The notes under the pieces are model-generated. The model was not told the origin of the DNA. It saw only the letters and a program-made list of their open reading frames with translations, and made no database searches. Shown here in pieces: positions 1 through 34,196 of a stretch of 64,000 nucleotides of DNA; within the stretch, counting starts at the first letter, position 1; each line of letters opens with the position of its first letter. Source of the DNA: Blastomussa wellsi (Eukaryota > Cnidaria > Anthozoa > Scleractinia > Plerogyridae); contig OX393565.1 of the NCBI GenBank assembly GCA_947652115.1, forward strand, positions 25,072,628 to 25,136,627, read 5' to 3'. The translations under genes were made by a program, and so were the position numbers.

Positions 1-423
1 CAGATTTCATTCGTTTCAACACCTCTATGAGATTCTAAAGTAACATTGCTCACTGTCACAGCTTTTAAGCCATCAGGAGAAAACACACAACACAAAGCTC
101 TCGACAGAAGGCTTCTGTCACCGTAACCGCCAGTGTCGCAGTCTATTTTGAAAGGCTCAAGAGTGCAGTCCGCGGTTCGCTCAGCCAAGATGATATGCCC
201 GTTTCCTGTGTTCAAAATAAACGATACGATCTCGCCGTTTGGAGAAAAACAACACACCGGGCGTGGTGAATACGTGAACAGGCTGTCATCATGAGTTTCT
301 TCGTTGTTCTGAAAGTCCCAACATTGAACAAATCCTGCTCGAAAATGCCTCAAAGGCAGTCCTGCGAACGTTGTCAGCGTCAACAAACTTGTGTCGTCGT
401 TTGGCGGAAAAGCCCAAGCCGTG
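1..423 (-). pseudogene. WD40-like repeat gene, exon part downstream of a transposon insertion
   Basis: The minus strand is open without a stop from position 423 to the window edge. It reads like WD40 blades, with CCFSPNGEIVSF and CCVFSPDGLKAVTV, each the typical strand ending in SPDG/SPNG. It opens with TAWAFPPNDDTSLLTL. The matching upstream piece lies beyond the 5.7 kb transposon at 6129-6349, which ends ...MKVTAWA in the same frame. Removing the element and one copy of the 14-bp duplication restores a continuous reading frame, so I read this as one exon split by the insertion. No catalytic domain is visible. WD repeats of this kind often follow NACHT or other STAND domains in cnidarians, but none is seen here. 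The gene continues off the left edge. Confidence 0.6.
410..423. repeat. Left target-site duplication
   Basis: The 14 bases aagcccaagccgtg recur exactly at 6115-6128 next to the other element end. They belong to the interrupted WD40-like exon, encoding part of ...TAWA. Confidence 0.85.
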
Positions 424-427
424 GAGT

Positions 428-444
428 AACTGCAGAATACCCTG
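428..444 (+). repeat. Left terminal inverted repeat of the transposon
   Basis: Seventeen bases matching the complement of 6098-6114 without mismatch. Four bases (424-427) separate it from the left target duplication, whereas the right copy abuts its duplication directly. Confidence 0.85.
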
Positions 445-481
445 TCACTGCAAAGGTGCTTTCCTGAAGGGTGCGGATACT

Positions 482-1185
482 TGGATACGCGGTGGCTAAC
501 ACCACCCCTCCCCTAGAAATAATCTAAGTATAGTGTGAAGTGGATACGCGGATACGTGGATACGCGGTGGCCAAGACCACCCCTCCCCTAGAAATAAACT
601 AAGTATAGTGTGAAGTGGATACGCGGATACGTGGATACGCGGTGGCTAAGACCACCCCTCCCCTAGAAATAATCTAAGTGTAGTGTGAAGTGGATACGCG
701 GATACGCGGATACGATGTGGCTTTGACCACCCCTCCCCTAGAAATAATGTAAGTGTAGTTTGAGGTGGATACGCGGATACGCGGATACGAAGTGGCTAGG
801 ACCATCCCTCCCCTAGAAATAATGTAAGTGTAGTTTGAGGTGGATACGCGGATACGCGGATAAGAAGTGGCTAGGACCATCCCTCCCATAGAAATAATGT
901 AAGTGTAGATTGGGGTGGATACGCGGATACGCGGATACGAAGTGGCTAGGACCACCCCTCCCCTAGAAATAATGTAAGTTAGTACCTCCGCCCCGAGATA
1001 TAATCGGAGTGTAGATTGTAGTGGATACGCGGTAGACTGCGAGCAGTCTCTCTTTTGCTCGAAAATCCGTTGGGAAACACGAAAGGAAGAACTCGAAACA
1101 ACATCTGGGTGCCAGCGTAATATGCGAAGCCGCGAGCCGTACGTAGCGCGGGCGTCGTAATACGTCGTAATACGCGGATACGAAA
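482..1185. repeat. Left subterminal tandem array (75-bp period)
   Basis: About seven units with a 75-bp period (starts near 541, 616, 691, 766, 841, 916), then decayed. Each unit carries two or three short GGATACGCG-type motifs followed by a conserved stretch around cacccctcccctagaaat. A long minus-strand open frame across the array is a by-product of the period being a multiple of three and is not a gene. Such arrays next to transposon ends are typical transposase binding regions; that role is inferred. Confidence 0.9.
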
Positions 1186-1285
1186 TGGCCAAGATCTCCA
1201 TTCCCCTGGCAATATTGTTATTTGACATTGAATTGGGCACCCTGAATTCTGTGAAGTTTCAAATTTAATTATTTATTATATTTGG

Positions 1286-1475
1286 AGTAAAATAGTAACC
1301 CGACTTACTGCGATTTACAAAGACAATGCTGTAATCATGACGAAGCATTGAATTTGAATTGTAATGTTTAATTCAAATAAAGTAAAATAGTAACCCGACT
1401 TACTGCGATTTACAAAGACAATACTGTAATCATGACGAAGCGTTGATTTGGAATTGTTATATTTAACAATTTGAG
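1286..1475. repeat. 95-bp tandem duplication inside the transposon
   Basis: Two copies starting at 1286 and 1381 share the stretch from agtaaaatagtaacccgac to atgacgaagc(a/g)ttg with few differences. They lie between the subterminal array and the 3' end of the ATPase gene, so may be its 3' UTR. Confidence 0.85.
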
Positions 1476-1567
1476 CCGGCGATTAGTGGTCAACAACAAA
1501 CAATGGAACAAGAAGATTCGATCAAAAAGATATGTAATTCAATTCTTATTAATTGGTAAAAATACTG

Positions 1568-3606
1568 TTAGTCAGTAAAGAAACCTGATGGTACATAGCC
1601 TTTTGACTCTAATTGTGTTTTGATGGCATTGGTTACACTGCGATGTGGCGGCAAATTGTATCTTTGGCGGAATTCTGCTTGTGAGCATAGGTTACTCGGC
1701 CATGTGATAGAATCTGGGTCTTTCTTGACAAAAACTGTAACGGGATTCGCCGTACGTGGGATCCTGAGGGAACATACTTTACCCAATCCGGAGTCCTCCA
1801 AAATCGTGATGGCATCTCGAAATTCTGCCTCTGCAATTGCACGTAAGCTCCGAGTGGCGCTCTGCTTAAAGGCTCGGAATGTAAAGACGGGTCCGGGGAA
1901 AAGAACGCATGCTGTCTTGATTGCAAACTTTGTTGGCTGTGGTTTTTCTTCGTCCAATGTTGGCGTTATCAACTCACTCAAAAACTAAAAAGGGAATAAA
2001 TGGCGATTAATGACCACGACAAGTTGAAGTAAATTAAAGAATTCAATCTTTTCAGTTGCTTAAAATCGTATGTGTATTATAAGAGCCAATTATATATTGT
2101 ACTTATCGCATTTTATTTTAATCGTCTGGAACATCATGTGCATTATATTTTGCAAGGAGGAGCATAAAAAAGGAAAAAAAATAGAATGTGTAATCTGTAA
2201 GCGTCGAACTAATGACCTCATGTGTACTTAATATGCGTTGTGAAGTCACCCACGCGAGAGAGCGTGTTCCCAATTGCATATTGGAAAGAATCCAACGTGT
2301 TACAAACATGTGATATAAGTCGACACAAATAGGTAATCATGAACTATTTTTATGAGGGAATAAGTGGAGTCTTGATAGTAAATTTGGGGTCTCTAAATTT
2401 TTGAAAACATGGATTTTAAACAATTACATAGTTATTTGTAGGCGAGGTTAAATTATCTGCAAATAAACGTTCTTTATATAAATTGATCGAAAACTGTTAC
2501 TTTACCTCAACAAAGATTTCCTTTTGGGATTCTGCCCAGGAAACGTAACTGATGGCCTTTTCAAGAGTTGCTTTCTCAATCTCTTCACCTGGCATTTCTG
2601 GTTCTTGCCCTTGTAGGAGTTGATCAATAACTGCATTAAGCACGTGTAGTGAAACAGCTACTCGTAGGACAATGTCAACCTTCTTGGTCTTTGGTGGAGT
2701 TCGACCTTCGCTGATGGCTGCGTTGACCTCAGTGATAAATTCCTCGTTGATGATATTTAATAGGTGTCTTGCTTCCTCGTTCAAGGAATAAGTTGCCCGA
2801 CTGGAGTGGAGCCTTGCGATTTCAACGAAGATGTCGTCGCAGCTAGCGAGAGGCAAATTCTTCAAATACTCAATGGCTTGTTCAGTTTCTTGTGGCTTTG
2901 GACGCAGACACTTAGGGAAAGTTATTAGGAACCTGTCCAGTAGGCCATGTCCTTGGTCAAGGACGGTAAATAGGCGTGCGGCAAAAGGTACTTGTGTTGA
3001 GCCAAGGATACAAAATGGAGTGTTTTCCGCGATTTCTCTTGAACTCTCGGTGGCGTAACGGTAGGACGTTTGTTCACCGGAAAACAGCTGACATAAAACT
3101 TGGACGTCTCCTGTAGCGTTTTCTTCATCTGATTTCAGTAACTTGAAAAGGACGTCGTAGATCTCGGCGGATAAGAGATATCCCTTCTCGTTCACAGCTA
3201 TAGTTTTTACTAGTCCAGAAGAAGTGCATTTGTTAATAACGCTGGACGAAGAATCCTGTTCCCTTGCCACGGCTGACATCGGGGAGACTGCACATTCTTT
3301 TAAGGCCTGTGATTTTCCTGTTGTCGGTGGTCCGACGAAAACGGAGTATAAGTTTAGCGGCATTTCCTGCGAGCCATTGACCAATGTTGTTTCCATTCCA
3401 GCAACAAATGCCGTGGTTGTCAGGAGGCTAGTCGCAACATATCCAGCGTTAGTACTAAGGGAAGCAGCTTTTTGTTCTACAAAGGACCATACGTTGTGTG
3501 GAAAAAGGCTTTCAAAAGGATCTGGCAACGAGATAAGACGTTTTTGAAGAAGTGACCAAGTGGCGTCGGGCTGTTTTCGCAGTTTCGCTAGCCTAGAATT
3601 CGACAT
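1568..3606 (-). CDS. DUF3987-like AAA ATPase / primase-helicase carried by the transposon
   Basis: Two exons: 2506-3606 (start ATG at 3606) and 1568-1984, giving 505 aa. The intron 1985-2505 has donor GAG|GTAAAG and acceptor TTTTTAG; the join is phase 0 (...EIFVE|FLSELIT). Exon 1 has a Walker A motif GPPTTGKS at residues 92-99 and a Walker B-like LLSAEI near 144-149. A sensor-like ILGSTQ lies near 200-205 and an arginine-finger-type GLLDRFL at 221-227, the signature order of the DUF3987 family (P-loop helicase half of primase-helicases). The C-terminal exon looks like a small wedge or winged-helix domain. It is divergently paired with the transposase gene 622 bp away and lies inside the terminal repeats, so I infer a role in transposition or element replication. 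No primase or polymerase domain is visible. Confidence 0.82.
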
Positions 3607-4228
3607 TTTGCGATTGAATGCTACTGTAGTAGATGAAATGTAGTAATGAAGCTCGTTTGGTAAGCGTAATTATTTAAGATTTCAAAGCTGCGTTAAGTTT
3701 ACGTCAACACATGCATTGTTTGGTCTAATAAATTCAAATGAAAAGTTCTGGCGGTATCTATTTGCTCAGTGAATTCCATTGTTTTGGGTGTTGTGATTTA
3801 GATGGGTGATGTGAATCAGAGGTGTTCAAATTGGCTGTGATATGAATAGCGTAATTAGTTCACGAGTAAACTGTAATACATCTGGTACCGTATTTTATAT
3901 AATAACTTAGGCCATTATAAGTATCGGCTATCACACATGAAAAGGTGTAATTTATAGTGTGTGCGGTTTCTTTTAAACAGCCTTTTCAATGCACTTTTTT
4001 TAAGCGGTATGTTTTTTGAAGCGGTATGTTTTGTTAAGTTGTTATTGAAATTTATTGAAATATTATAGACACATGAACAGGTAAAAATGTTCGTTTGCAT
4101 TGAAATTGGGCATTGTGCTTGTTTAGACTAACACAAGTAGCGCGTGCGAATGTTTGCGTTGTCATTTGGGGTGGCTAAAGCAAGAAAACTTGGTGACAAA
4201 GCATTGCATATAGGATAAAAAGTTGAAA
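3607..4228. promoter_or_regulatory. Divergent promoter region of the transposon
   Basis: AT-rich, 622 bp between the start codons of the ATPase (minus) and the transposase (plus). It must hold both promoters unless there are further upstream exons. A direct repeat around agcggtatgttttt occurs at about 4002 and 4020. No clear TATA assignment was made. Confidence 0.55.
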
Positions 4229-5248
4229 ATGTATTCAGTTAAACGTCGCCGGACAACTGGTGTACAAGTTGGTCGTTCATCTGCAGATCGTAAAGAGCAA
4301 GGAACTCAGTGTCGCGAATTCGAAGCAAGTTACAAGAGATCAGACAAGCAGGGCAATTTTACTAGTTATGACGACCTGATGAAAAAATATCTTTGGGACA
4401 AAGACTTTACTCTGTCGTGGCTAAAACAGGATGGTTTACTTGCCGCTAGCCGAGCCTGTAGTATTTGTGCATCAGACATGAAGTGGACGGAATGTATGGA
4501 TCGATCTGACGGATACTTATGGAAATGTCAGAAGCAGTTAAACGGTAAACGCCACCGAAGTGAAAAAAGTATCAGAGAAGGAAGCTGGTTTGAGAAGTCC
4601 AATTTGACGATCGAGGAGGTGTTGAAATTTACTTACTGGTGGTGCCAAGATATGAAACAGTGGCAGATTAAACAGCAACTTGGGCTAGGGTCTCACACTG
4701 CGGTGGATTGGGACATGTTCTGCCGGGAGGTTTGCGAGGTGGCATTGTTCCAAAGAAGGGAGAAAATTGGCGGACCAGGAAAGCTTGTTCAAATCGACGA
4801 GAGCAAGATAGGCAAGAGGAAATATCATCGCGGGCATGTGGTTGAGGGACAGTGGGTATTCGGAGGAATAGAAGAAGATTCACGAAAGTGTTTCATTGTG
4901 ACTGTAGAAGACAGAAGTGAAAGTACTTTGTTGGAAATAATAAAAGAATGGATTGAGCCCGGCACTACAATCGTGTCTGATTGCTGGAAAGCATATGTAA
5001 ACCTGGAAAAGCATGGATATCACCATAAGACAGTTAATCACTCTGTTGAGTTTGTTAATGAGGAGGGCTTTCACACGAACAAAATAGAAGGACATTGGAG
5101 ACAGATGAAAGCCAAGCTACCGACTCATGGAAGGAAAAAAGAACACTATTCGTCATATTTGGCAGAGTTCAAATGGAGATATATTCATCGGGGGAATGAT
5201 CTGTGGAAGGTGTTTTTAGAGGACATAAAAAAAATTTACGAGTTGTAA
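4229..5248 (+). CDS. ISXO2/IS1595-like (Merlin superfamily) DDE transposase
   Basis: Single-exon gene of 339 aa. I take the ATG at 4229; the frame opens two codons earlier with TTG only. The N-terminus is basic (VKRRRTTG). A zinc-ribbon-like set of cysteines follows (C77, C80, C89, C100), then a helical region. The catalytic core fits the ISXO2-like fold: LVQIDESKIGKRKY (D190), TTIVSDCWKAY (D251) and NKIEGHWRQMKAKLP (E287), with the N-x-x-E spacing usual for IS1595/Merlin. Its length is that of intact family members and no stop or frameshift is seen, so it may be active. A polyadenylation-type AATAAA follows at about 5271. It is expected to bind the element ends and cut and join DNA in the nucleus. 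Confidence 0.93.
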   Translation: MYSVKRRRTTGVQVGRSSADRKEQGTQCREFEASYKRSDKQGNFTSYDDLMKKYLWDKDFTLSWLKQDGLLAASRACSICASDMKWTECMDRSDGYLWKCQKQLNGKRHRSEKSIREGSWFEKSNLTIEEVLKFTYWWCQDMKQWQIKQQLGLGSHTAVDWDMFCREVCEVALFQRREKIGGPGKLVQIDESKIGKRKYHRGHVVEGQWVFGGIEEDSRKCFIVTVEDRSESTLLEIIKEWIEPGTTIVSDCWKAYVNLEKHGYHHKTVNHSVEFVNEEGFHTNKIEGHWRQMKAKLPTHGRKKEHYSSYLAEFKWRYIHRGNDLWKVFLEDIKKIYEL

Positions 5249-5700
5249 ATCATTAGAACAGTTAGGTAGCAATAAATTTTTGTCGGTAGAAAGCAACGCT
5301 GTCGTCAATGGACACTTGGAACGAGGTTGCAGCGCAGCTGTTTTAGTGTATACTTTTATAAAGAAGACTCAAATTTGTTGAATATGTTCGCTGGAGTTTT
5401 TTAACGCTTTTAGAACGAAGCATGTACATTGTGTTTTGGGTGTAAATGATGACGTCCACCACTGTGAGCTGTAAATAAGTAAAACAGTTATGATGTAGCA
5501 ATAAATGTTTGACGGTTCAAATCAACGCCGTCGCTAAAGGATACTGGGAACGAGCTTGCAGCGTAGCTGTATCAGTGTATACTTTCAGAAATAAGATGGT
5601 AGATATTGATCAACTATAATCGTGCTTTTCACGCTTTTAGAACGAAGGATATAAATTGGATTGGGGTGTACATTGTGATGACCAGGACCGCGGGAGTAAT
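5246..5700. repeat. About 225-bp tandem duplication downstream of the transposase
   Basis: Two diverged copies, starting near 5246 and 5470. Shared landmarks are aacagtta followed by a gtagcaataaat polyadenylation-like signal, caacgc(t/c)gtcg, ggaacgag(g/c)ttgcagcg, and acgcttttagaacgaag. The first copy supplies the likely polyA signal of the transposase mRNA. Confidence 0.8.
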
Positions 5701-5948
5701 ATCTTCAGTTGTGGGTGAATACTGTTTCTCACTTTAATAACGAAAAATACAAGTATATCCATCTCTAGCGATAGACATTATAGATTATTTTTATTCTTTC
5801 GCTAAGTTATCACGCCTTGGATCAACAAGAAATACACATCAATTAAAGAACGAGAAAAATACATATCACAGCATATAAATCTTCAGGCATAACTCATTAC
5901 TATTTCATGCAAATCTTTGGGCATAACTCATTACTAATTCATGTTGAC

Positions 5949-6045
5949 TGCGTATCCACGTATCCGCGTATCCACCCTCATGAGATTTACTCATTACTAA
6001 TTCATGTTAACTGCGTATCCACGTATCCGCGTATCCACCCTGATA
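5949..6045. repeat. Right subterminal repeats of the transposon
   Basis: Two copies of a 62-bp unit, each with gcgtatccacgtatccgcg, the inverse of the GGATACG motif of the left array, preceded by ctcattactaattcatgtt. Confidence 0.85.
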
Positions 6046-6097
6046 TATGCTTTATGACCTAGTATCCGGCCTTTTTAGGGGTATAACTTCAAAATGG

Positions 6098-6114
6098 CAG
6101 GGTATTCTGCAGTT
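6098..6114 (-). repeat. Right terminal inverted repeat of the transposon
   Basis: cagggtattctgcagtt, the exact inverse of 428-444, followed at once by the duplicated target. Confidence 0.85.
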
Positions 6115-6128
6115 AAGCCCAAGCCGTG
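6115..6128. repeat. Right target-site duplication
   Basis: Exact 14-bp copy of 410-423, directly abutting the right terminal inverted repeat of the element. Confidence 0.85.
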
Positions 6129-6349
6129 ACCTTCATGACTTGATCGAGTCCTAAAGGACCCGAATGCTTTAGTTCCTTTAGGACTGTGAATGGAGGAGGA
6201 ATGGTCTTGCCTTGCGGATGAAATGATCGATGCGTTGACGTACAAAGCGACAGGTCTCTTCTCGTCTGCAGATCTGTTACATTTGGCTTCGAGGAATCCA
6301 AACCCATGCTTGCACTCATTCTTAAGTCATACAGTTGCCTTCTGGGTAT
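6129..6349 (-). pseudogene. Upstream part of the split WD40-like exon
   Basis: Minus-strand reading frame of about 74 codons ending in LGLDQVMKVTAWA, directly in frame with the FPPNDD start of the segment at 1-423. An AG preceded by a weak pyrimidine tract at 6350-6351 may be the splice acceptor; the frame has a stop (TAG) at that point. A second frame is also nearly open here, so the exact exon limits are unsure. The evidence for a real exon is the frame continuity across the insertion. Confidence 0.45.
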
Positions 6350-6517
6350 CTAGCAGCCAAAGGTCCTTCGCAATCAAGAATAAAAGGAACAGGGCCAAAG
6401 ATTTGATGTACTTCGTAGACAGTGGCTTCCATATTGTTTTTGTTTTTTAGTACCCAGATCTCCCGAGCATTAGTGCTCAGTTTACTGGCCGCGAAATAGG
6501 TCAGACGCCTGCTCGCC

Positions 6518-6555
6518 CTAATCCCCTGAGGCGCGCCCGCGCCTCAAGGGATTAG
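6518..6555. repeat. GC-rich perfect hairpin
   Basis: ctaatcccctgaggcgcg and its near-exact inverse meet with almost no loop. It could be a MITE core; nothing else is recognised in 6450-6800. Confidence 0.7.
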
Positions 6556-6814
6556 GTCACTTCAGACTAGTGAAAATCCTGTGCGGTTTGTTAAATCCAT
6601 TACATATAACGTGGGGTTCTCTATATAACTGTTCCTTTTTCCCCTCTTAAAAACATTTCATTCTTACACGTCTTCTAAGAAAGCAAGAATTATTAAAAGT
6701 TCACCTGGTTTGAAAGAAATTCTGAAACGAAAGCTAGTCAAATCCTGCTTAGCAGCGTTTTGTCAATAACTTGTTGTTGATATGGATGAGAAAAAAATCC
6801 GAGTCCCAGTAAGT

Positions 6815-13600: not shown

Positions 13601-16600
13601 GGAATTCGATGCGAAAATGTGAAGGAACATGTTATAAAACTAGAACTGTGAAAGCATACAGCATACAAAGTAACTTTTCAGCAATCGTCTTAACTTTGAG
13701 TTTGAAAGCGAAGAGTTTCAGAAATTTGGGACGCTTGCAGGAGACAGTTTTGGCCCGCAGAACTGCGTAAGCGCGCCATATTTGACCTCTATGTAAGTCT
13801 TATGACAGCCATGAGACTCACTTACTGGAAGTGTGCAACAGCTGGGATTCAATTTCACTAACAAAAAGCTGCATGTTAAGAAATGCACCATTCTCACTCA
13901 CCATGTTCACAGTACTTCCCTATAAAACCTACAGCGCACTTGCAGAACATCACCTCACCATTGTCAACGCAAGTACCTCCATTACCACAAGTAGATGATT
14001 GACACCTGTCATTCTTAACTTCACAGTGTTGACCATGGTACCCCTCAGGGCATACGCACTCACTTAAATTTCCAATATGGCGACAGCTGCCACCATTTAA
14101 GCAAATTACACTATCACATCCATGCATGCTTGTTGTAATGTTACATGTTTCTCCTGTGAAACCCGTTAAACAGGTACAGTAGAAACCTCCTGGGGTGTCG
14201 ACACATCTTCCTGCATGTTGGCATGGAGATGAGTCACAATTGCTTTCCTTTACCTCACAGTAGCGACCTAAAAGTTAATAAAAGCATCTATAAGCATCTA
14301 TATATTACTATGCATTTATTCAATAAATTCCCTCCCAATACTGTCATCTGGACTATAAATAATGTCATAATTTAATTTAATGCCATCCCTCCAACAATCC
14401 TGAAGTTGAATGTTTTGGACTGACAGCACCATTCCCAGGGTCTGTCTAAAGCACAAAATAAATTATTTACATGTGTGGGGTTAAATGAAATTTTTCAGAC
14501 TGGTTTGGTCCTGCACAATACAGCTTGCAAAATGGGATCACATCAGTGGATCAGAGACATGTGGTGGTATGATAAAATGAATTTAATTTGTAGGCTTTTT
14601 CTCACCTGTGAAGTTTGGTGGACACCAGCATTTGATGGCAGATATTTCATTAGTGCAAGTTCCATTATTTTGGCAAGGTGATGGCACACACTCATTAACA
14701 TCAACAGAACAGTTGATGCCAGTATATCCTGGGGCACACACACAGCTAAAGGTATTCACGCCATCCACACATCTGCTGCCATTATGCTGGCAAGGCTGCA
14801 TAGAGCAATCATCAATGTTCACTCCACAAGTTCTTCCTTTGAATCCTGAAGGACATAGACAGTGAAAGTCATCCACCATGTCAAAACAGCTGCCGCCGTT
14901 TTGACAAGGAAGATTGGCACAATCATCCATATTCATTTCACAATTACTTCCATTGAAGCCAGTATGGCAGATGCATTCAAATCTGCCTTCTTTATCAAGG
15001 CATGTCCCATTGACACATGGCTGCAACTGACACTCATCTATGTCTGTCTCGCAATCTACACCAGTGTAGCCCACAGGACAGTTACAAATATAACCATTTA
15101 CTAGGTCAAGGCATGAGCCACCATGACGACATGGTTGATTGGCACAGTCATCAATGTCGACATCACATTGTCTTCCAGTGTAGCCAGGAGAGCATGTACA
15201 TTTGAAATTGTTTACATCATCAGTGCAGCTGCCAGAGTTTTTACAGGGCTGCCTTTCACAGTCATCAATGTTTATTTCACAGTGGCTGCCACCAAACCCA
15301 GGACTGCATAGACATTCATACTTATTGATGCCATCAAGACAAAAGGCACCATTTGAACAATTCTGTGACTTACATTCATCAACATTTGTTTCACATGTCT
15401 TGCCAGTAAAACCTGGCCTACAAGTACAGTTGAAGCCATTTACCAAATCTGTGCAAATCCCATCGTGATAACAAGGAAAGGAATAGCACTCATTGATGTC
15501 CACAGAGCATGTTCGTCCTTTGAAACCTGGGGCACATAAGCATTTGAAGTCATTTATCAAATCCTCACAAGTTGCTCCATTGTTGCAAGGATTGTCAAGA
15601 CAGTCACTGACATCTCTTTCACAGTAGTCGCCAGTATAACCCTTCAAGCAGAGACATGTATAGTTATTGACACCATCTAAACAAGTGGCATTATTTTGAC
15701 AGCTGTGTGATAGGCAATGATTAATATCTACCTCGCAGTCAATACCAGTAAAGCCCTCTGGACAAATACAGTGATATGAGGAATTAGTGGAGACGCACGT
15801 CCCTCCATTGCGACACGAAAATGTATTACATATATTAACTGGACCAGCGCAGGTTCTTCCAGTAATGCTGCCTGGACAGTCGCATTTAAAGTTATCAACG
15901 ACATCAATACATTTTCCACTATGGCAAGGATTAGGTGAACAGTCATTAACATTAACCATACATGCTGCATTTGTGAATCCGTTGGGGCAAAGGCAATCAT
16001 AACCTAGTCCATCTTCCCTGTTGATACAAGTTCCACCATTCAGACAAGGCTGATTAATACACTCATCAGTATTGATGTGGCAGTCTTTCCCAGTATAGCC
16101 TGTTGAACAAGTACAGTTATAATCATTCACTAGATCTATACATGTGGCATTATGGCGGCAAGGATCGTTTACGCAGTCGTCAATGTTAACTGAGCAGTCC
16201 TTCCCTGTGTACCCTGTGCGACAAACACATCTGAAGTCATTGACTGTGTCCACACACACTCCTTGGTTCTTGCAAGGTTGAGTAACACAGTCGTCAACAT
16301 CCACTTCACAGAATTGCCCTGTGAAACCAGGCTTGCAAACACACTTGTACGAGCTTGTTCTGTCAATACAAGCAGAATCATGAATGCACTTGTGGTCTTT
16401 GCATTCGTCTATATCAATCTCACATTTTTGTCCAGTAAACCCTGGTAAGCATGTGCAGGAGAATCCATCGAGTAAGTCAACACATGTGGCATTATTGTCA
16501 CATGGAGTGGATAAGCAGTCATCAATGTTTGCTTGACAAGTTGCACCTTGGAAGCCTGATGCACAGTCACAGTGGAAATCGTTGACAAGATCATGACAGG

Positions 16601-19068
16601 TTCCTGGCAGAAATATAGAAAAATATTAACAATTCAAATTACATTAAATTGTTGTAATCAACAAACTGAGCCACACTGTAGAAATGATTATTGATTCCTA
16701 TACTGCCAAGCTAAGAAAACCGTGATACAATGTAGTGACCTGAATCATAATTAAGTTTAGGGCACACAAGCAAACGTCAAAAACACAAACTAATTACTGT
16801 GAAGTATATATGAAATAATTCATATTTCAACTACGGATGTAGATGAAAGTGAAGAATGATCATCACAGGCTTCATAGCTCAGTTGGTAGAGCATTGCACC
16901 AGTATCTCGTGGAGGTCATGGGTTTGAATTCCACTGAAGCCCTGAGTTTTTTCAGGCTTCTTCTTTCCAATTGCTTAAATTGGAAATTTGCTGTGATGAA
17001 CATTCTTCACTATTTTTCAAACTAATAACTGTTGCTGGGTTTGCGGTTTAGTTTGCTCACAGCTCATTGGCTTTTCCTTTGTAACACAATAACATTCCAT
17101 AAATAATGTTCATGGTTTTCTTAGTTTCACCGTTACTGTAATTGTACTCGTAAGTAAGTAGTTGTCTTACCTCCATTTTTACAAGGTGTTTGTTTACAGT
17201 CATCAATATCCACTTCACAATTCTTTCCAGAAAAACCAGATTTGCACACGCAAAGGTAAGCATTCACCCCATCAGCACATATTCCTCCATTTTGACAAGG
17301 ACTACTACCACACTCATTGTAGTTTATTTGACAGAGGATTCCAGTATAGCCTGGCTTGCAAGTGCAGGAAAATCCATTCACCTTATCAATACAAGTGCTA
17401 CCATGATAACAAGGAAAACCAGCACAGTCATCGACATCAATCTCACAGGACTTTCCTGCAAAGCCAGGCTGGCAATGACAATGGAAATCTGAGACAAGGT
17501 CTTGACAAGTTGCACCATTTCTGCATGGGTTACCTTGGCAGTCATCAATGTTTGTCTCACAGATAATTCCGGTGTATCCTCTATGACATTGACAGTGAAA
17601 AGAGTTGATCTGAAAATCCAATAGTATTGAAATAACATTCAGCTACAACAATATTAGTCAAGTTTGAACTAATTTTCAGTTCCATTGGAGTTTGGGGAAT
17701 AAGTATCACGAAGTCTACCCTAAGTAAGTTGTACCTCTGTGTGTTTATTCATTATCCTCCTACAAAAAGATGACTGAAATCCTATACATTATCACGATGG
17801 GTTGTCATGTTACTTGGGTGCAAAAAGACAAAAGCAAGCAACAATTACACCTGTAACGAGAGACACTCCCGGTGGGACTCGCATATGAAAGGGGAGGGAA
17901 TGCTCATCAGGAATTTTGAATTAAACCCCTAAAGGAGACCGTCCTGGGCGTGGCCCAACCATTTTTTACCCCTAAAAGAGGCCATGTTAAAACGCAGGCA
18001 AATGAAAAATAAATAAAATTTAGTAAATAAAACAAATTAAAAATATACATATTAAATATATCTTTTTATATTTCTTCGTGTGCAACCCTAAATGAGACAT
18101 TCATGGTTCTGGAGTTTTACCCAGAACACCCTAAGTGAGACCAAAATCTGAAATATACACCCGTAAGCGAGACAACGAGCATCCCGCCCCTTTCATATGC
18201 GAGTCCCCCAGGGAGACATACCTGCCCATTAGTTAAGTAACTATGGAACTTTCTAAGTCAAATCTTGAACTAGCGAAAAACTGAATGCACGCACTTGTTT
18301 ATGCAGGTTGATTTGAGACTGCTATACCTGGTCAATGCATGTGCCATTGTTGTGGCAAGGGTGTGTGGCACATTCATCGATATTGACAGAACATTTGTTG
18401 CCGGTGTACCCTCCTGCACAGTGACAAAACTGTTGTCCAATGGCTGTTGTGACACAAGTTCCTCCATTTAAACAGGAGCTTGGTGAACAGGTGCTGTCGT
18501 AACCCTGGAAAATATGCCAAATATTTTTCAAAGTGTTCTCTCCTAGCAAGTACTGGTAAACGACTGGCCAGCAATATCCTTTAAAAATGGTGGGGATAAA
18601 TTTCCAGCATGTCACAGAAACTTTTTTAATGTGACTAAATGTAATTTAGGCGAAGTTAAAATCGAGACAATGCAAGCAGCGGTCTTCTTCATGGTGGCTC
18701 ATGTTGCTGTGGGGCAGCCTGGCAAGTCGCAGGGGTTTCAGTATTTACAGGGCTCAGGTTTCTGAGAATCATTGTGCATTCACTCTCACTTTGCGAAGCC
18801 TTTGTGCTGTTCTCCCCCGCCCTTCCCCTCCCTTTTCAGGTAGGTATCAACACTTCCACTGAATTGCTATTCAGTGTGACGGTGCTGGATGGTGGTTGCC
18901 GCTCACAGGGTTGCCATGGTTACCATGGCTCTCGGCTCGTACATTCACGGTCCCACCATCCGTATAAGCACCATCCCCCAACCTCATCTATAGTTGATGA
19001 GTTTTAATTACCTTGAGAACTCCACTCCATAGTAGAAAAAAAGCAACCACAACTCTTGTTGATATCAT
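9282..19068 (-). CDS. EGF-repeat type I transmembrane receptor (Notch-like ectodomain), 9 exons
   Basis: Exons, 5' to 3': 19012-19068, 18328-18504, 17171-17609, 14606-16603, 13902-14267, 13060-13206, 12474-12593, 11398-11600, 9282-9629. All joins are GT-AG and in phase (0,0,1,1,1,1,1,0), giving 1284 aa. Exon 1 is the signal peptide [19 protein letters not shown]. Then follow about 27 EGF modules, mostly of the calcium-binding (D-I/V-D-D/E-C) type, plus a last incomplete one with four cysteines. A transmembrane helix (about 1109-1131, [19 protein letters not shown]) leads to a basic stop-transfer and a 153-residue tail. The tail has an NPIY motif (1165-1168; NPxY-type adaptor/endocytic signal) and a Ser-rich RKSTSAPDL. 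There are no LNR, DSL, laminin-G or ankyrin repeats, so it is neither canonical Notch, Delta nor Crumbs. It probably acts at the cell surface in adhesion or signalling; the ligand is unknown. Confidence 0.9.
10495..10660. repeat. (TTA)n / (TTATTC)n microsatellite
   Basis: About 165 bp of TTATTC hexamers passing into pure TTA repeats. It lies in the last intron of the EGF receptor gene and produces spurious open frames. Confidence 0.97.
10662..10825. mobile_element. Palindromic MITE (family with aggtcatttccgag ends)
   Basis: Ends aggtcatttccgagt and actcggaaatgacct are inverted, and the arms stay complementary (gtctaagtgcgaaaccatt and its inverse) to a short centre. It abuts the TTA microsatellite. 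A relative lies at 37249-37425. Confidence 0.8.
10902..11281. mobile_element. Nested foldback element
   Basis: Long inverted arms (atagacc...aacgtgtttac(a/c)tcc and ttgttgc(c/t)acccaattcag) enclose a second inverted pair. The inner pair contains atagaccaattccgatatat and gccgaggctt. Outer and inner elements end in the same ATAGACC(A)A-type motif, so a related element may have inserted into its own kind. Confidence 0.75.
11780..11872. repeat. Short tandem array of a 12-bp motif
   Basis: Seven to eight diverged copies of aagtatcggcga in the intron upstream of the transmembrane exon. Confidence 0.7.
12066..12148 (-). repeat. tRNA-derived SINE head
   Basis: Minus strand: TAGCTCAGTTGGAAGAGC (A box) and GGTTCGAATCC (B box) at tRNA spacing. 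It is followed by a body (ccaattgcttcaattgga...) shared with the plus-strand copy at 16868-17010. It lies in an intron of the EGF receptor gene. Confidence 0.7.
13331..13460. mobile_element. Palindromic MITE, 130 bp
   Basis: Arms atg(a)tacacttaaacgacc... and ...ggtcgttgaagtgtatcat pair over nearly the whole length and meet at tggccacaaa / tttgtggcca. Intronic. Confidence 0.8.
14606..16603 (-). other. Giant EGF exon of the receptor gene
   Basis: One 1998-bp exon, phase 1 at both ends, encodes the end of EGF 6 and about 17 further EGF repeats in unbroken frame. The neighbouring exons encode from under one to five repeats each. Most repeats start with (I/V)(D/N)(D/E)C and carry the C-x-D/N-x4-Y/F-x-C consensus for Asp/Asn hydroxylation and calcium binding. 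Confidence 0.88.
16849..17010 (+). repeat. SINE with tRNA-like head and inverted flanks
   Basis: The tRNA-like part 16868-16941 has a perfect 7-bp acceptor stem (GGCTTCA / TGAAGCC), an A box TAGCTCAGTTGGTAGAGC and a B-like box. The anticodon arm is poor, so it is not called a tRNA gene. The whole unit is bracketed by gtgaagaatgatcatcaca and its near inverse at 16992-17010. It lies between exons 3 and 4 of the EGF receptor gene. Confidence 0.7.
17866..18215. mobile_element. About 350-bp MITE-like element
   Basis: Ends carry gggactcgcatatgaaaggg and its inverse ccctttcatatgcgagtccc. The interior is AT-rich with repeated cc(c)taa(a/g)(a/t)gaga-type phrases. Intronic. Confidence 0.75.
18625..19010 (+). 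repeat. Long direct repeat, copy 1
   Basis: 386 bp, about 93% similar by eye to 19277-19666. It ends in gatgagttttaatta, whose last bases form the intron side of the 5' splice site of exon 1 of the EGF receptor gene (donor AAG|GTAATT on the minus strand). Confidence 0.85.
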
Positions 19069-31629: not shown

Positions 31630-31785
31630 ATGGGTATATGACAGTACACGTAAGCAACAAATAGTCTGGCAAGGGATCTTTCTGCAATAGTTCTACTCAA
31701 CCGATGTAATATAATTTCCTTCTACTTTGCCTTTGCGTTAGTAGTTCGGGATTGTGATCGAGAATGGCAACAAAGATACATTGTT

Positions 31786-31858
31786 CGCCCAATATGGGAC
31801 TTGAACCCATAACCCTCAGATTAAAAGTCTGATGCTCTACCGACTGAGCTAACCGGGA
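31786..31858 (-). tRNA. tRNA-Lys (TTT), slightly degenerate
   Basis: 73 nt, minus strand, anticodon loop CTTTTAA. It differs from the copy at 32736-32808 at the first acceptor base (T for G) and the T-arm (GGGTTATGG). It may be a pseudogene, though arms and boxes are kept. Confidence 0.7.
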
Positions 31859-32309
31859 GGCTCATGCACGTACTTTTTATAACTCAGTTTTTTACGCTAC
31901 TGATTTCATTTCTCTTGCTTACAGGTCTTGAGACTTGCTATCATAATGAAACTTAAAGTCGTGGTTATAGAGTAATTCTTCTTTCCAAGTGCCAAAGTGG
32001 TTTCGTGAGGCTAGGTACTATATGACAGTGCTGGCAAAGAAAGTTTCTGTAATAGTTTTTAATTCTCAAAAGCTAACCCTCTATTTCGGCTTTGACATCG
32101 ATAACTCTATTTCAGTGTAACTGATTTCTCCCGGGACAGAGTTTTCTATCTCAATTTGGACACGTGTTCTCTGACATTTCTCCCACGTTCACCGACGAAC
32201 TGGCCACCAGTGTTACTAACAATTAAGGTGCATAAGTTGCTATTTGGACCTCCAGTTGCCTGTTCATCGCAGTCAGCAAAAACAATCCGTCTTTTTTCGA
32301 CCTGCAGGT

Positions 32310-32395
32310 GCCTCGTTAGCGGAGTAGGCAGCGCGTCAGTTTCATAATTTGCACCAGAAATCTGAAGGTCGTGAGTTCGATCCTCACACGGGGCA
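32310..32395 (+). tRNA. tRNA-Met (CAT, elongator type) with a 13-nt intron
   Basis: 86 nt: GCCTCGTTAGC... to ...CTCACACGGGGCA. The acceptor stem pairs as GCCTCGT/ACGGGGC with a wobble. The anticodon loop TTCATA is followed by 13 extra bases (about 32347-32359) before ATCTGA, exactly at the canonical position 37/38. Removing them leaves a standard 73-nt cloverleaf. The B box GAGTTCGATCC is intact. Confidence 0.85.
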
Positions 32396-32735
32396 GAGTT
32401 TTGAAAAGTTGTTTAGCTGTTTTCATAAAATCAAAATCTCTTCTGTCCATCGCAGTCAACGAAAGCAGTCTGTATTTTATGTTTATTTCGAATGCAGTTC
32501 TCTCTTTACATGTCAGTCAAGTTCTCTCTTTTGTGTCTACTTGCCTCCTTGAATTGTTTCTTGTTATGTCATATCAGCGAAAACATTGCGAATATGTGAT
32601 TGGACTCCCTTTGTTAGATTTCAGTCAATCAAATCATGTGTCCACAGAGCCACTTGTTCCTAGTGCACAGGCCCGGCCGGCTAAGAGGGACAAGTGGCTC
32701 TGGGACGAGAATGAATGGCAAAAAAGTGCATTGTT

Positions 32736-32808
32736 CGCCCGATATGGGACTTGAACCCATGACCCTCAGATTAAAAGTCTGATGCTCTACCGACTGAGCT
32801 AACCGGGC
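32736..32808 (-). tRNA. tRNA-Lys (TTT)
   Basis: 73 nt, minus strand. Acceptor GCCCGGT/ATCGGGC, D arm TAGCTCAGTCGGTAGAGC, anticodon loop CTTTTAA with stem TCAGA/TCTGA, T arm ATGGGTTCAAGTCCCAT. All features of a functional gene. Confidence 0.93.
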
Positions 32809-33088
32809 ATCTCATGCACACACCTTGCATAAGAGTTGAGTACTCATCTTGTTTCCAAGCCCCAAAGTGGTTTCGTGAGGCTGGGTATACGACACTGCAC
32901 GTACGCAACAGTCATATGTCTGGCAAAGAACTTTTCTGTAATAGTTCTTCTCAACAACTGTATACCTCTATTTTGCCTTTGACATCGATAGCTCCCCGGT
33001 GCTTTTTTGTTACATTTCTCCTACGTTCACTGACAACTGAGCCACCAGTGTTACTATCAAGATGCATAAGTTTCTGTTTGGATCTGCA

Positions 33089-33155
33089 GGTTCCTCGTTA
33101 GAGCACTAGGCAGCGCATCAGTGTCATAATCTGCACCAGAAATCATAAGTTCGTG
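33089..33155 (+). pseudogene. tRNA-Met relic
   Basis: Copy of the intron-bearing tRNA-Met (shares CTCGTTAG, GGCAGCGC, TCATAATCTGCACCAGAAATC) but with substitutions in the acceptor and D arm and a truncated T arm. It retains the intron-like insertion. Confidence 0.75.
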
Positions 33156-33444
33156 AGTTGTTTGACTGGTTTTATAAAATCAAAATCTTTTCTGTTCATC
33201 GAAGTCAGCGAAAACATCCCGTCTTTTATATTTATTTTGAATGTAGTTATCTTTTGCGTCAACATGTGAGTTCTCTCTTATAATCTACCTACCTCCTTGA
33301 AAGGTTTCTTATTATATCATATTTTTCTATTACTAATATTAGAATGCTCCAGGGATAAAATTATAACCTAGGGCGACACACCTCTGAGTTAGTAAGTTAG
33401 GAATTATAGATCAATTATCATAGTGGCAACAAAAATGTATTGGT

Positions 33445-33517
33445 CGCCCGATATGGGACTTGAACCCATGACCCTCAGATTAAAAGTCTGATGCTCTACC
33501 GACTTAGCTAACAGGGC
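33445..33517 (-). tRNA. tRNA-Lys (TTT), third copy
   Basis: 73 nt, minus strand, identical in anticodon and T arms to 32736-32808. It has one acceptor mismatch (GCCCTGT) and CTAAG instead of CTCAG in the D arm; possibly decaying. Confidence 0.75.
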
Positions 33518-34196
33518 GGCTCGTGAACGTATTTTGTATAATTATATAACTCAGTGTTTTACGCTACTGATTTCTTTTCTTTATTCACGGCAGGTTTTTC
33601 AACTGTGTGATGACAATGAGCGTTCAAAATAACAGTACAGATGTTTATAAAGACGGGCTCACAGATTTTGAGACTTGCTATCATAATCAAAGCCCCAAAG
33701 AGGTCTTCGTGAGGCTGGGTATACTGGACAGTGCACTTAAGCAACAGTCATAACTGTAGCTGATTTTATTCCTGTAGGATGAAAATTCGTGTTTAAAAAA
33801 CATCAGCGCCGATTTTTATAAAGAGTGACGTCTTTGCAGGTTTAGAGACTTTTTATCCGTGACCAGTAAAGAAAGTTAAAAACGTGATTATAGTGTGATT
33901 CTTGTTTATCAACTTCTGATTTATCAAATAAGGGATTTTACAGGAACGGTCATTAATCATAATAAACCGATATCAAACCCACCAATCGTAATTGCAAAGT
34001 TCTTGGGAAAGGTCACTTTCCCAGTATTGGGGAGTGTACGTAAGCAACAGGCATAAGTCTGGAAAAGAAGAGAACATCGTGCAGCTATTTCAGAAAATTC
34101 TATTATGGGAAGTGCGCGGCAACCTCCTGTAGCCACAGGAATCCCAAGCTCAAAATACGTGGTTAATGGGACTGCTTGTGTTTACAGAGAATTGTA

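Follow-up and report, generated by a model that had tools for sequence, protein, structure and literature searches.

The 64,000-nucleotide stretch of Blastomussa wellsi DNA analysed here (the window) contains a complete and apparently intact element of about 5.7 kb, which spans positions 423-6119 and holds two divergently transcribed genes (Table 1). The first encodes an intact DDE transposase, and the IS1595/Merlin signature ascribed to it in the initial annotation is borne out: the protein matches PF12762 (E 1.5e-24) and scores 102.7 bits against the NCBIfam IS1595 model NF033547 (cut-off 75), and its residues D190, D251 and E287 are invariant in all 31 aligned sequences, window included. 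Zinc-ribbon-like C77, C80 and C100 are likewise present in 31 of 31, and H109 in 30 of 31. By its sequence the element is classed as an autonomous DNA transposon of Merlin/IS1595 type with two genes; both promoters are presumed to lie in the intergenic region.

The second gene is spliced, and its predicted product reads through 505 residues without a stop; the splice sites are those suggested by consensus, by relatives and by a second element, L001, described below. Its identification as a P-loop ATPase of DUF3987 type transcribed away from the transposase agrees with a match of exon 1 to PF13148 (E 2.6e-19; 70.1 bits against a cut-off of 27), and a DUF3987 match at E ≤ 0.1 is found in 33 of 33 aligned ATPase sequences. 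Exon 2 (1984-1568), which had been omitted, is similar by eye to the C-terminal parts of the 502-residue relatives P0059 and P0099. The profiles of the two assigned families, DUF3987 and DDE_Tnp_IS1595, thus each recognize one gene. The count of exactly two genes between the ends also stands. Four more frames of at least 80 residues lie within the element, beyond the exons, on the strand opposite to them or in a different frame, and none of them scores above a Pfam cut-off.

Table 1. Features of the element and its insertion site (positions in the window).
Feature	Position	Strand	Basis or remark
Interrupted host open frame, downstream piece	3..422	-	about 140 codons; runs off the window
8-bp target duplication CAAGCCGT, left copy	415..422	.	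end position from L001 comparison
Left terminal inverted repeat GGAGTAACTGCAGAATACCCTG	423..444	+	identical 22 bases end L001
Left subterminal array, 75-bp unit x 6.8, clustered GGATACG	473..983	+	repeat finding; motif count
95-bp unit x 1.9, between array and ATPase gene	1286..1466	.	repeat finding
ATPase exon 2, C-terminal domain	1568..1984	-	stop codon included
ATPase intron, GT-AG (inferred)	1985..2505	-	same position in L001
ATPase exon 1, DUF3987 / MCM-like AAA+ domain	2506..3606	-	Walker A GPPTTGKS; PF13148; fold from relative P0099
Intergenic region between divergent genes	3607..4228	.	position only
IS1595/Merlin-type transposase, 339 aa	4229..5248	+	intact; PF12762
229-bp unit x 1.9, at and downstream of transposase end	5240..5670	.	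repeat finding
Right subterminal sites, two clusters of three CGTATCC	5947..6038	-	inverted relative to left array; motif count
Right terminal inverted repeat, minus strand GGCTTAACTGCAGAATACCCTG	6098..6119	-	outer 4 bases set by symmetry
8-bp target duplication CAAGCCGT, right copy	6120..6127	.	direct repeat beside element end
Interrupted host open frame, upstream piece	6122..6349	-	76 codons; in frame with downstream piece at empty site

The view that a Merlin/IS1595-type element carries a DUF3987 gene gains from a second occurrence of the same pair in the same layout. A scan of GTDB genome contigs with the ATPase alignment returned a single locus, L001, from 56 pattern matches: contig DDLT01000139.1, of 4,876 bp, filed under a Lentisphaeria metagenome-assembled genome (MAG), with a transposase at 38-1060 and, on the opposite strand and again divergent, an ATPase in two exons (1928-3028 and 3825-4241). 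Since a spliced gene sits there on a short contig in a bacterial bin, the locus is most simply explained as eukaryote contamination, which it probably is; the contig covers one element end. Identity to the window proteins is 70.8% for the transposase and 74.7% for the ATPase; the L001 transposase is in turn 93% identical to the environmental cluster P0126 and its ATPase 99% identical to P0011 over 367 residues. Recurrence in this one second, diverged element argues against a one-off capture. Two further contigs, of 1,000,656 and 301,463 bases, are each the longest contig of one cluster in both protein families. These are the two lengths common to 198 ATPase and 118 transposase longest-contig entries, which stand one per cluster and form no survey. 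A crude simulation of chance coincidences for contigs of at least 10 kb (89 and 49) gave a mean of 0.004, so that both genes are probably present on these two contigs, whether near each other or far apart. Within the rest of the window, blastn found no further copy at E 0.01, and no tblastn match of the proteins fell below E 0.82; viral contigs scanned with each protein, both alignments and the 18-base end yielded no confirmed relative.

Comparison with L001 also refined the ends. Inverted ends, a target duplication and subterminal arrays enclosing the two genes had all been described and are all present, but the edges lie at 423 and 6119 and the duplication measures 8 bp instead of 14. The 18-base ends TAACTGCAGAATACCCTG at 427-444 have a perfect inverted copy at 6098-6115. 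The L001 end reads GGAGTAACTGCAGAATACCCTG and similarity to the window begins at 423, for which reason the left end is placed there and not at 424 or 427; this adds four bases (GGAG) to the left end of the window element, and the right end was taken symmetrically. The resulting terminal inverted repeats (423-444 and 6098-6119) are identical at 20 of 22 positions and both start 5'-GG. With up to 3 mismatches, a 21-base end pattern has two matches in 64 kb, both of them the element ends (mean 0.00 in 100 shuffles). The direct repeat AAGCCCAAGCCGTG of 14 bases, which a repeat finder located on the flanks of the element, is best described from these comparisons as the 8-bp duplication followed by terminal right-end bases whose likeness to the target is due to chance. 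A duplication of 13-14 bp is a less likely reading, as GGAG is element sequence judging by L001; the same applies to the variant with a 13-bp duplication and a shortened right end.

In the reconstructed empty site, with a single duplication copy left, a minus-strand frame continues unbroken across the joint. This restored frame fits a precise and rather recent insertion into an exon. Two stretches of the host frame look by eye like a WD40 protein, yet neither piece has a Pfam match, and the host sequence is therefore termed an open frame only.

The motif GGATACG occurs 20 times in the left part of the element and six times, inverted, on the right; the remaining 58,303 bases of the window contain it once in each orientation. 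The corresponding end of L001 bears a 75-bp array of like kind, and this end region is 85% identical to that of the window over 326 bp. The coral MITEs with conserved 75-base interiors described in the available part of PMC2872659 have TTAA duplications, belong to piggyBac and are not this element.

Both proteins have many relatives. At E ≤ 0.001, single-sequence protein searches counted 186 for the ATPase and 617 for the transposase (120 listed in each case). An alignment search with the ATPase found 163 (120 listed). Among the matches listed, ATPase hosts include Stylophora, Exaiptasia, Actinostola, Porites, Dendronephthya, Pocillopora and Holothuria in the single-sequence search and Actinia, Desmophyllum, Nematostella and Paramuricea in the alignment search, while transposase hosts include Acropora, Montipora, Exaiptasia, Dendronephthya, Patiria and Lytechinus. 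Exaiptasia and Dendronephthya thus appear for both proteins, and the echinoderm species named differ among the matches listed.

Between the window and L001, the proportion of differing fourfold sites reaches 0.645 in the transposase (n = 76) and 0.579 in the ATPase (n = 178), compared with 0.153 and 0.115 at second codon positions. By the NG86 method, dN is 0.184 and dS 3.56 for the ATPase, a saturated value that makes the ratio rough, and dN is 0.209 for the transposase, with a dS that is not computable. Conserved proteins alongside saturated silent sites clearly point to selection keeping both genes. Moreover, the identities of transposase and ATPase drop roughly in step over four pairs, two of which are joined by shared length alone.

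The predicted model of the full-length relative P0099 matches MCM replicative helicases, and the best 50 VIA rows are all MCM-type entries. From this model the ATPase is inferred to be a DUF3987-type, MCM-like AAA+ ring helicase. There is no room for an MCM-like N-terminal region, because only some 33 residues precede the matched part in the model. No MCM family figures among the 14 Pfam families matched by the 33 ATPase members at E ≤ 0.1; weak matches to AAA_5 (2 members) and AAA_7 (5 members) show only that the ATPase is AAA+. Phage relatives that bear names are mostly primase-helicases, helicases or DUF3987 proteins. When the C-terminal domain was folded alone from two sequences, the pLDDT was 54.7, too poor for a fold search; the order of helices and strands of this domain in the full model would suit a winged helix, which is only suggestive.

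Taken together, we lean towards a reading in which the second gene encodes a helicase that assists the element in its own movement, and neither cargo nor a target selector. The transposase would bind the 22-bp ends and its DDE catalysis would cut and join DNA; the GGATACG arrays immediately internal to the two ends may be where the ATPase, or the transposase, is loaded; and the ATPase might then unwind the element or the strand-transfer product, thereby coupling transposition to copying or to a clean resolution. The initial annotation had also proposed an ATPase partner in transposition. That part is retained, with a role in replication or unwinding now the likelier one, but its analogy to bacterial target-selecting helpers is less supported given the MCM fold predicted for the relative.

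Among the alternatives, the one that survives best makes the ATPase a replication protein that lets the locus, or the element in excised or circular form, be copied extrachromosomally from the GGATACG arrays in the manner of an iteron plasmid, with the transposase alone sufficing for transposition. The MCM-like fold of the model and the iteron-like arrays at both ends speak for it, as do DUF3987 domains that accompany primases in mobile-element replication modules (available part of PMC5862659). However, the arrays could equally be transposase sites, and neither the two genes nor the four other frames of at least 80 residues have a Pfam match to a primase or polymerase; we regard this possibility as unlikely. 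Somewhat less plausible again is an AAA+ target selector or transposase activator that would coat the target, recruit the transposase and confer target immunity. An ATPase partner stands beside the DDE transposase in IS21 (IstB), Tn7 (TnsC) and Mu (MuB), and the P-loop ATPase adjoining the DDE transposase in the window would fit this two-protein bacterial logic, whereas the best 50 VIA rows, all of MCM type, and most of the named phage relatives point away from it; selectors may still stand among weaker VIA matches.

Passenger genes are known in bacterial IS1595-family elements, and the ATPase could by analogy be cargo that an ancestor picked up on one occasion and that plays no part in movement. 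This is improbable in view of its conservation: the gene is intact and conserved in two elements despite saturated silent sites, its divergence seems to track that of the transposase, and it looks like a DNA-processing enzyme, not a gene of benefit to the host. Finally, although published descriptions, as far as available, give one gene, a transposase-only Merlin beside an unrelated helicase gene, or two nested elements, is hardly credible, as both genes lie within a single pair of ends flanked by one duplication, and L001 repeats the layout.

Beyond the helicase helper favoured here, a more specific scenario can be put forward tentatively, as a possibility that we would not yet call probable: a Merlin-type lineage of anthozoans and echinoderms may have taken up an MCM-like DUF3987 replicative helicase, loaded at the arrays, for copying (replicative) movement. 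If true, this would be a eukaryotic DDE transposon equipped with a replication-type ring helicase of its own. A single enzyme is commonly taken to suffice for eukaryotic cut-and-paste elements. From a conserved pair of Merlin-type transposase and helicase, with arrays shared by the ends, it would follow that one more transposase superfamily has recruited helicases of the replication type. The window would provide a concrete, apparently intact element for testing whether eukaryotic DDE elements can move by copying and, should it function in cells, a tool that is new and unusual in design.

The available parts of the literature describe Merlin elements as related to IS1016, with 8-9 bp duplications, 5'-GG ends and terminal inverted repeats of 24-462 bp (PMC8101967), with 23-29 bp quoted for the families of one protist (PMC8101967); at 22 bp, the matching terminal stretch in the window falls slightly below the 24-462 bp range. 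The same source attributes to IS1595 elements a single transposase gene, which is usual but not diagnostic, and, in most groups, a zinc-ribbon-like N-terminus (PMC8101967). It already covers 10 cnidarian species with Merlin transposases, and microsporidian Merlin is represented by 84 complete consensus sequences with transposase coding sequence (PMC4202319). The statement that known Merlin elements encode a transposase only agrees with what these two descriptions contain in their available parts (PMC8101967, PMC4202319). Among the matches listed from open-licence full texts, no paper pairs a Merlin/IS1595 transposase with a DUF3987, MCM or other helicase protein; Repbase may have an entry.

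The window element shares with Merlin/IS1595 elements the DDE_Tnp_IS1595 domain, the 8-bp duplication, the 5'-GG ends and the zinc-ribbon-like N-terminus, but differs in its 5.7-kb length, its long subterminal arrays and a second, spliced helicase-like gene within the same ends, present in L001 as well, where the available descriptions give the transposase only. Helicase lineages are already known in Academ and Kolobok, and for Merlin none was found in the open-licence literature. KolobokH, with its RecQ helicase (available part of PMC9587614), and AcademH, a helicase-encoding lineage as cited in the available part of PMC10045372, are likewise eukaryotic DDD/E transposons with helicase coding capacity; the helicase gene of the window is in contrast DUF3987/MCM-like, separate and divergent, and accompanies a transposase of another superfamily. 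The DUF3987 primase-helicase modules of bacterial mobile elements and phages have the same ATPase family, predicted to be a helicase of mobile-element replication (available part of PMC5862659), and there the primase is fused to it, whereas the ATPase of the window has a DDE transposase as its partner and a primase is not seen. With MCM helicases the likeness lies in the MCM-type AAA+ fold, predicted for P0099 and not for the window protein itself, and the difference in the missing sequence-family match and in the absent Walker B aspartate. With IstB, TnsC and MuB, lastly, the element has in common an ATPase beside a DDE transposase, but the predicted fold of that ATPase points to the MCM type.

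The related element L001, which carries the same divergent gene pair, is filed under the genome record of a Lentisphaeria MAG. Because it is an animal-type transposon with an intron, contig DDLT01000139.1 is very probably eukaryote contamination in that record. Within the intron of the L001 ATPase gene lies a degenerate transposon end of the element's own kind, GGGTATTCTGCAATTTCTCC, shortly followed by an inverted piece, ATACCCTGCCAT; together they are perhaps the relic of a short non-autonomous copy.

Features of the window and of L001
Feature	Location	Strand	Details
ATPase exon 1	window 2506-3606	-	Walker B motif
Hairpin	window 6517-6556		19 bp, near-perfect, 95% complementary, 2-base loop; shortly outside the element
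Long open frames with EGF-like repeats	window 14583-17642	-	PF00008 and by-eye reading
tRNA cluster, 4 genes	window 31785-33518		3 Lys(ttt), 1 Met(cat) on the opposite strand
Animal-type transposon with intron	L001:1-4876		DDLT01000139.1
Degenerate end and inverted piece	L001:3273-3318		ATPase intron

Elsewhere in the window, the larger EGF-like frame holds 18 PF00008 stretches and the repeats of the smaller were recognised by eye; these frames belong to a gene for an animal extracellular protein.

In the ATPase family, the Walker B glutamate is kept throughout (33/33 aligned sequences) and the aspartate is substituted, the motif reading S-x-E in 31 of the 33. Such a Walker B motif, devoid of its aspartate, is atypical of an active AAA+ motor.
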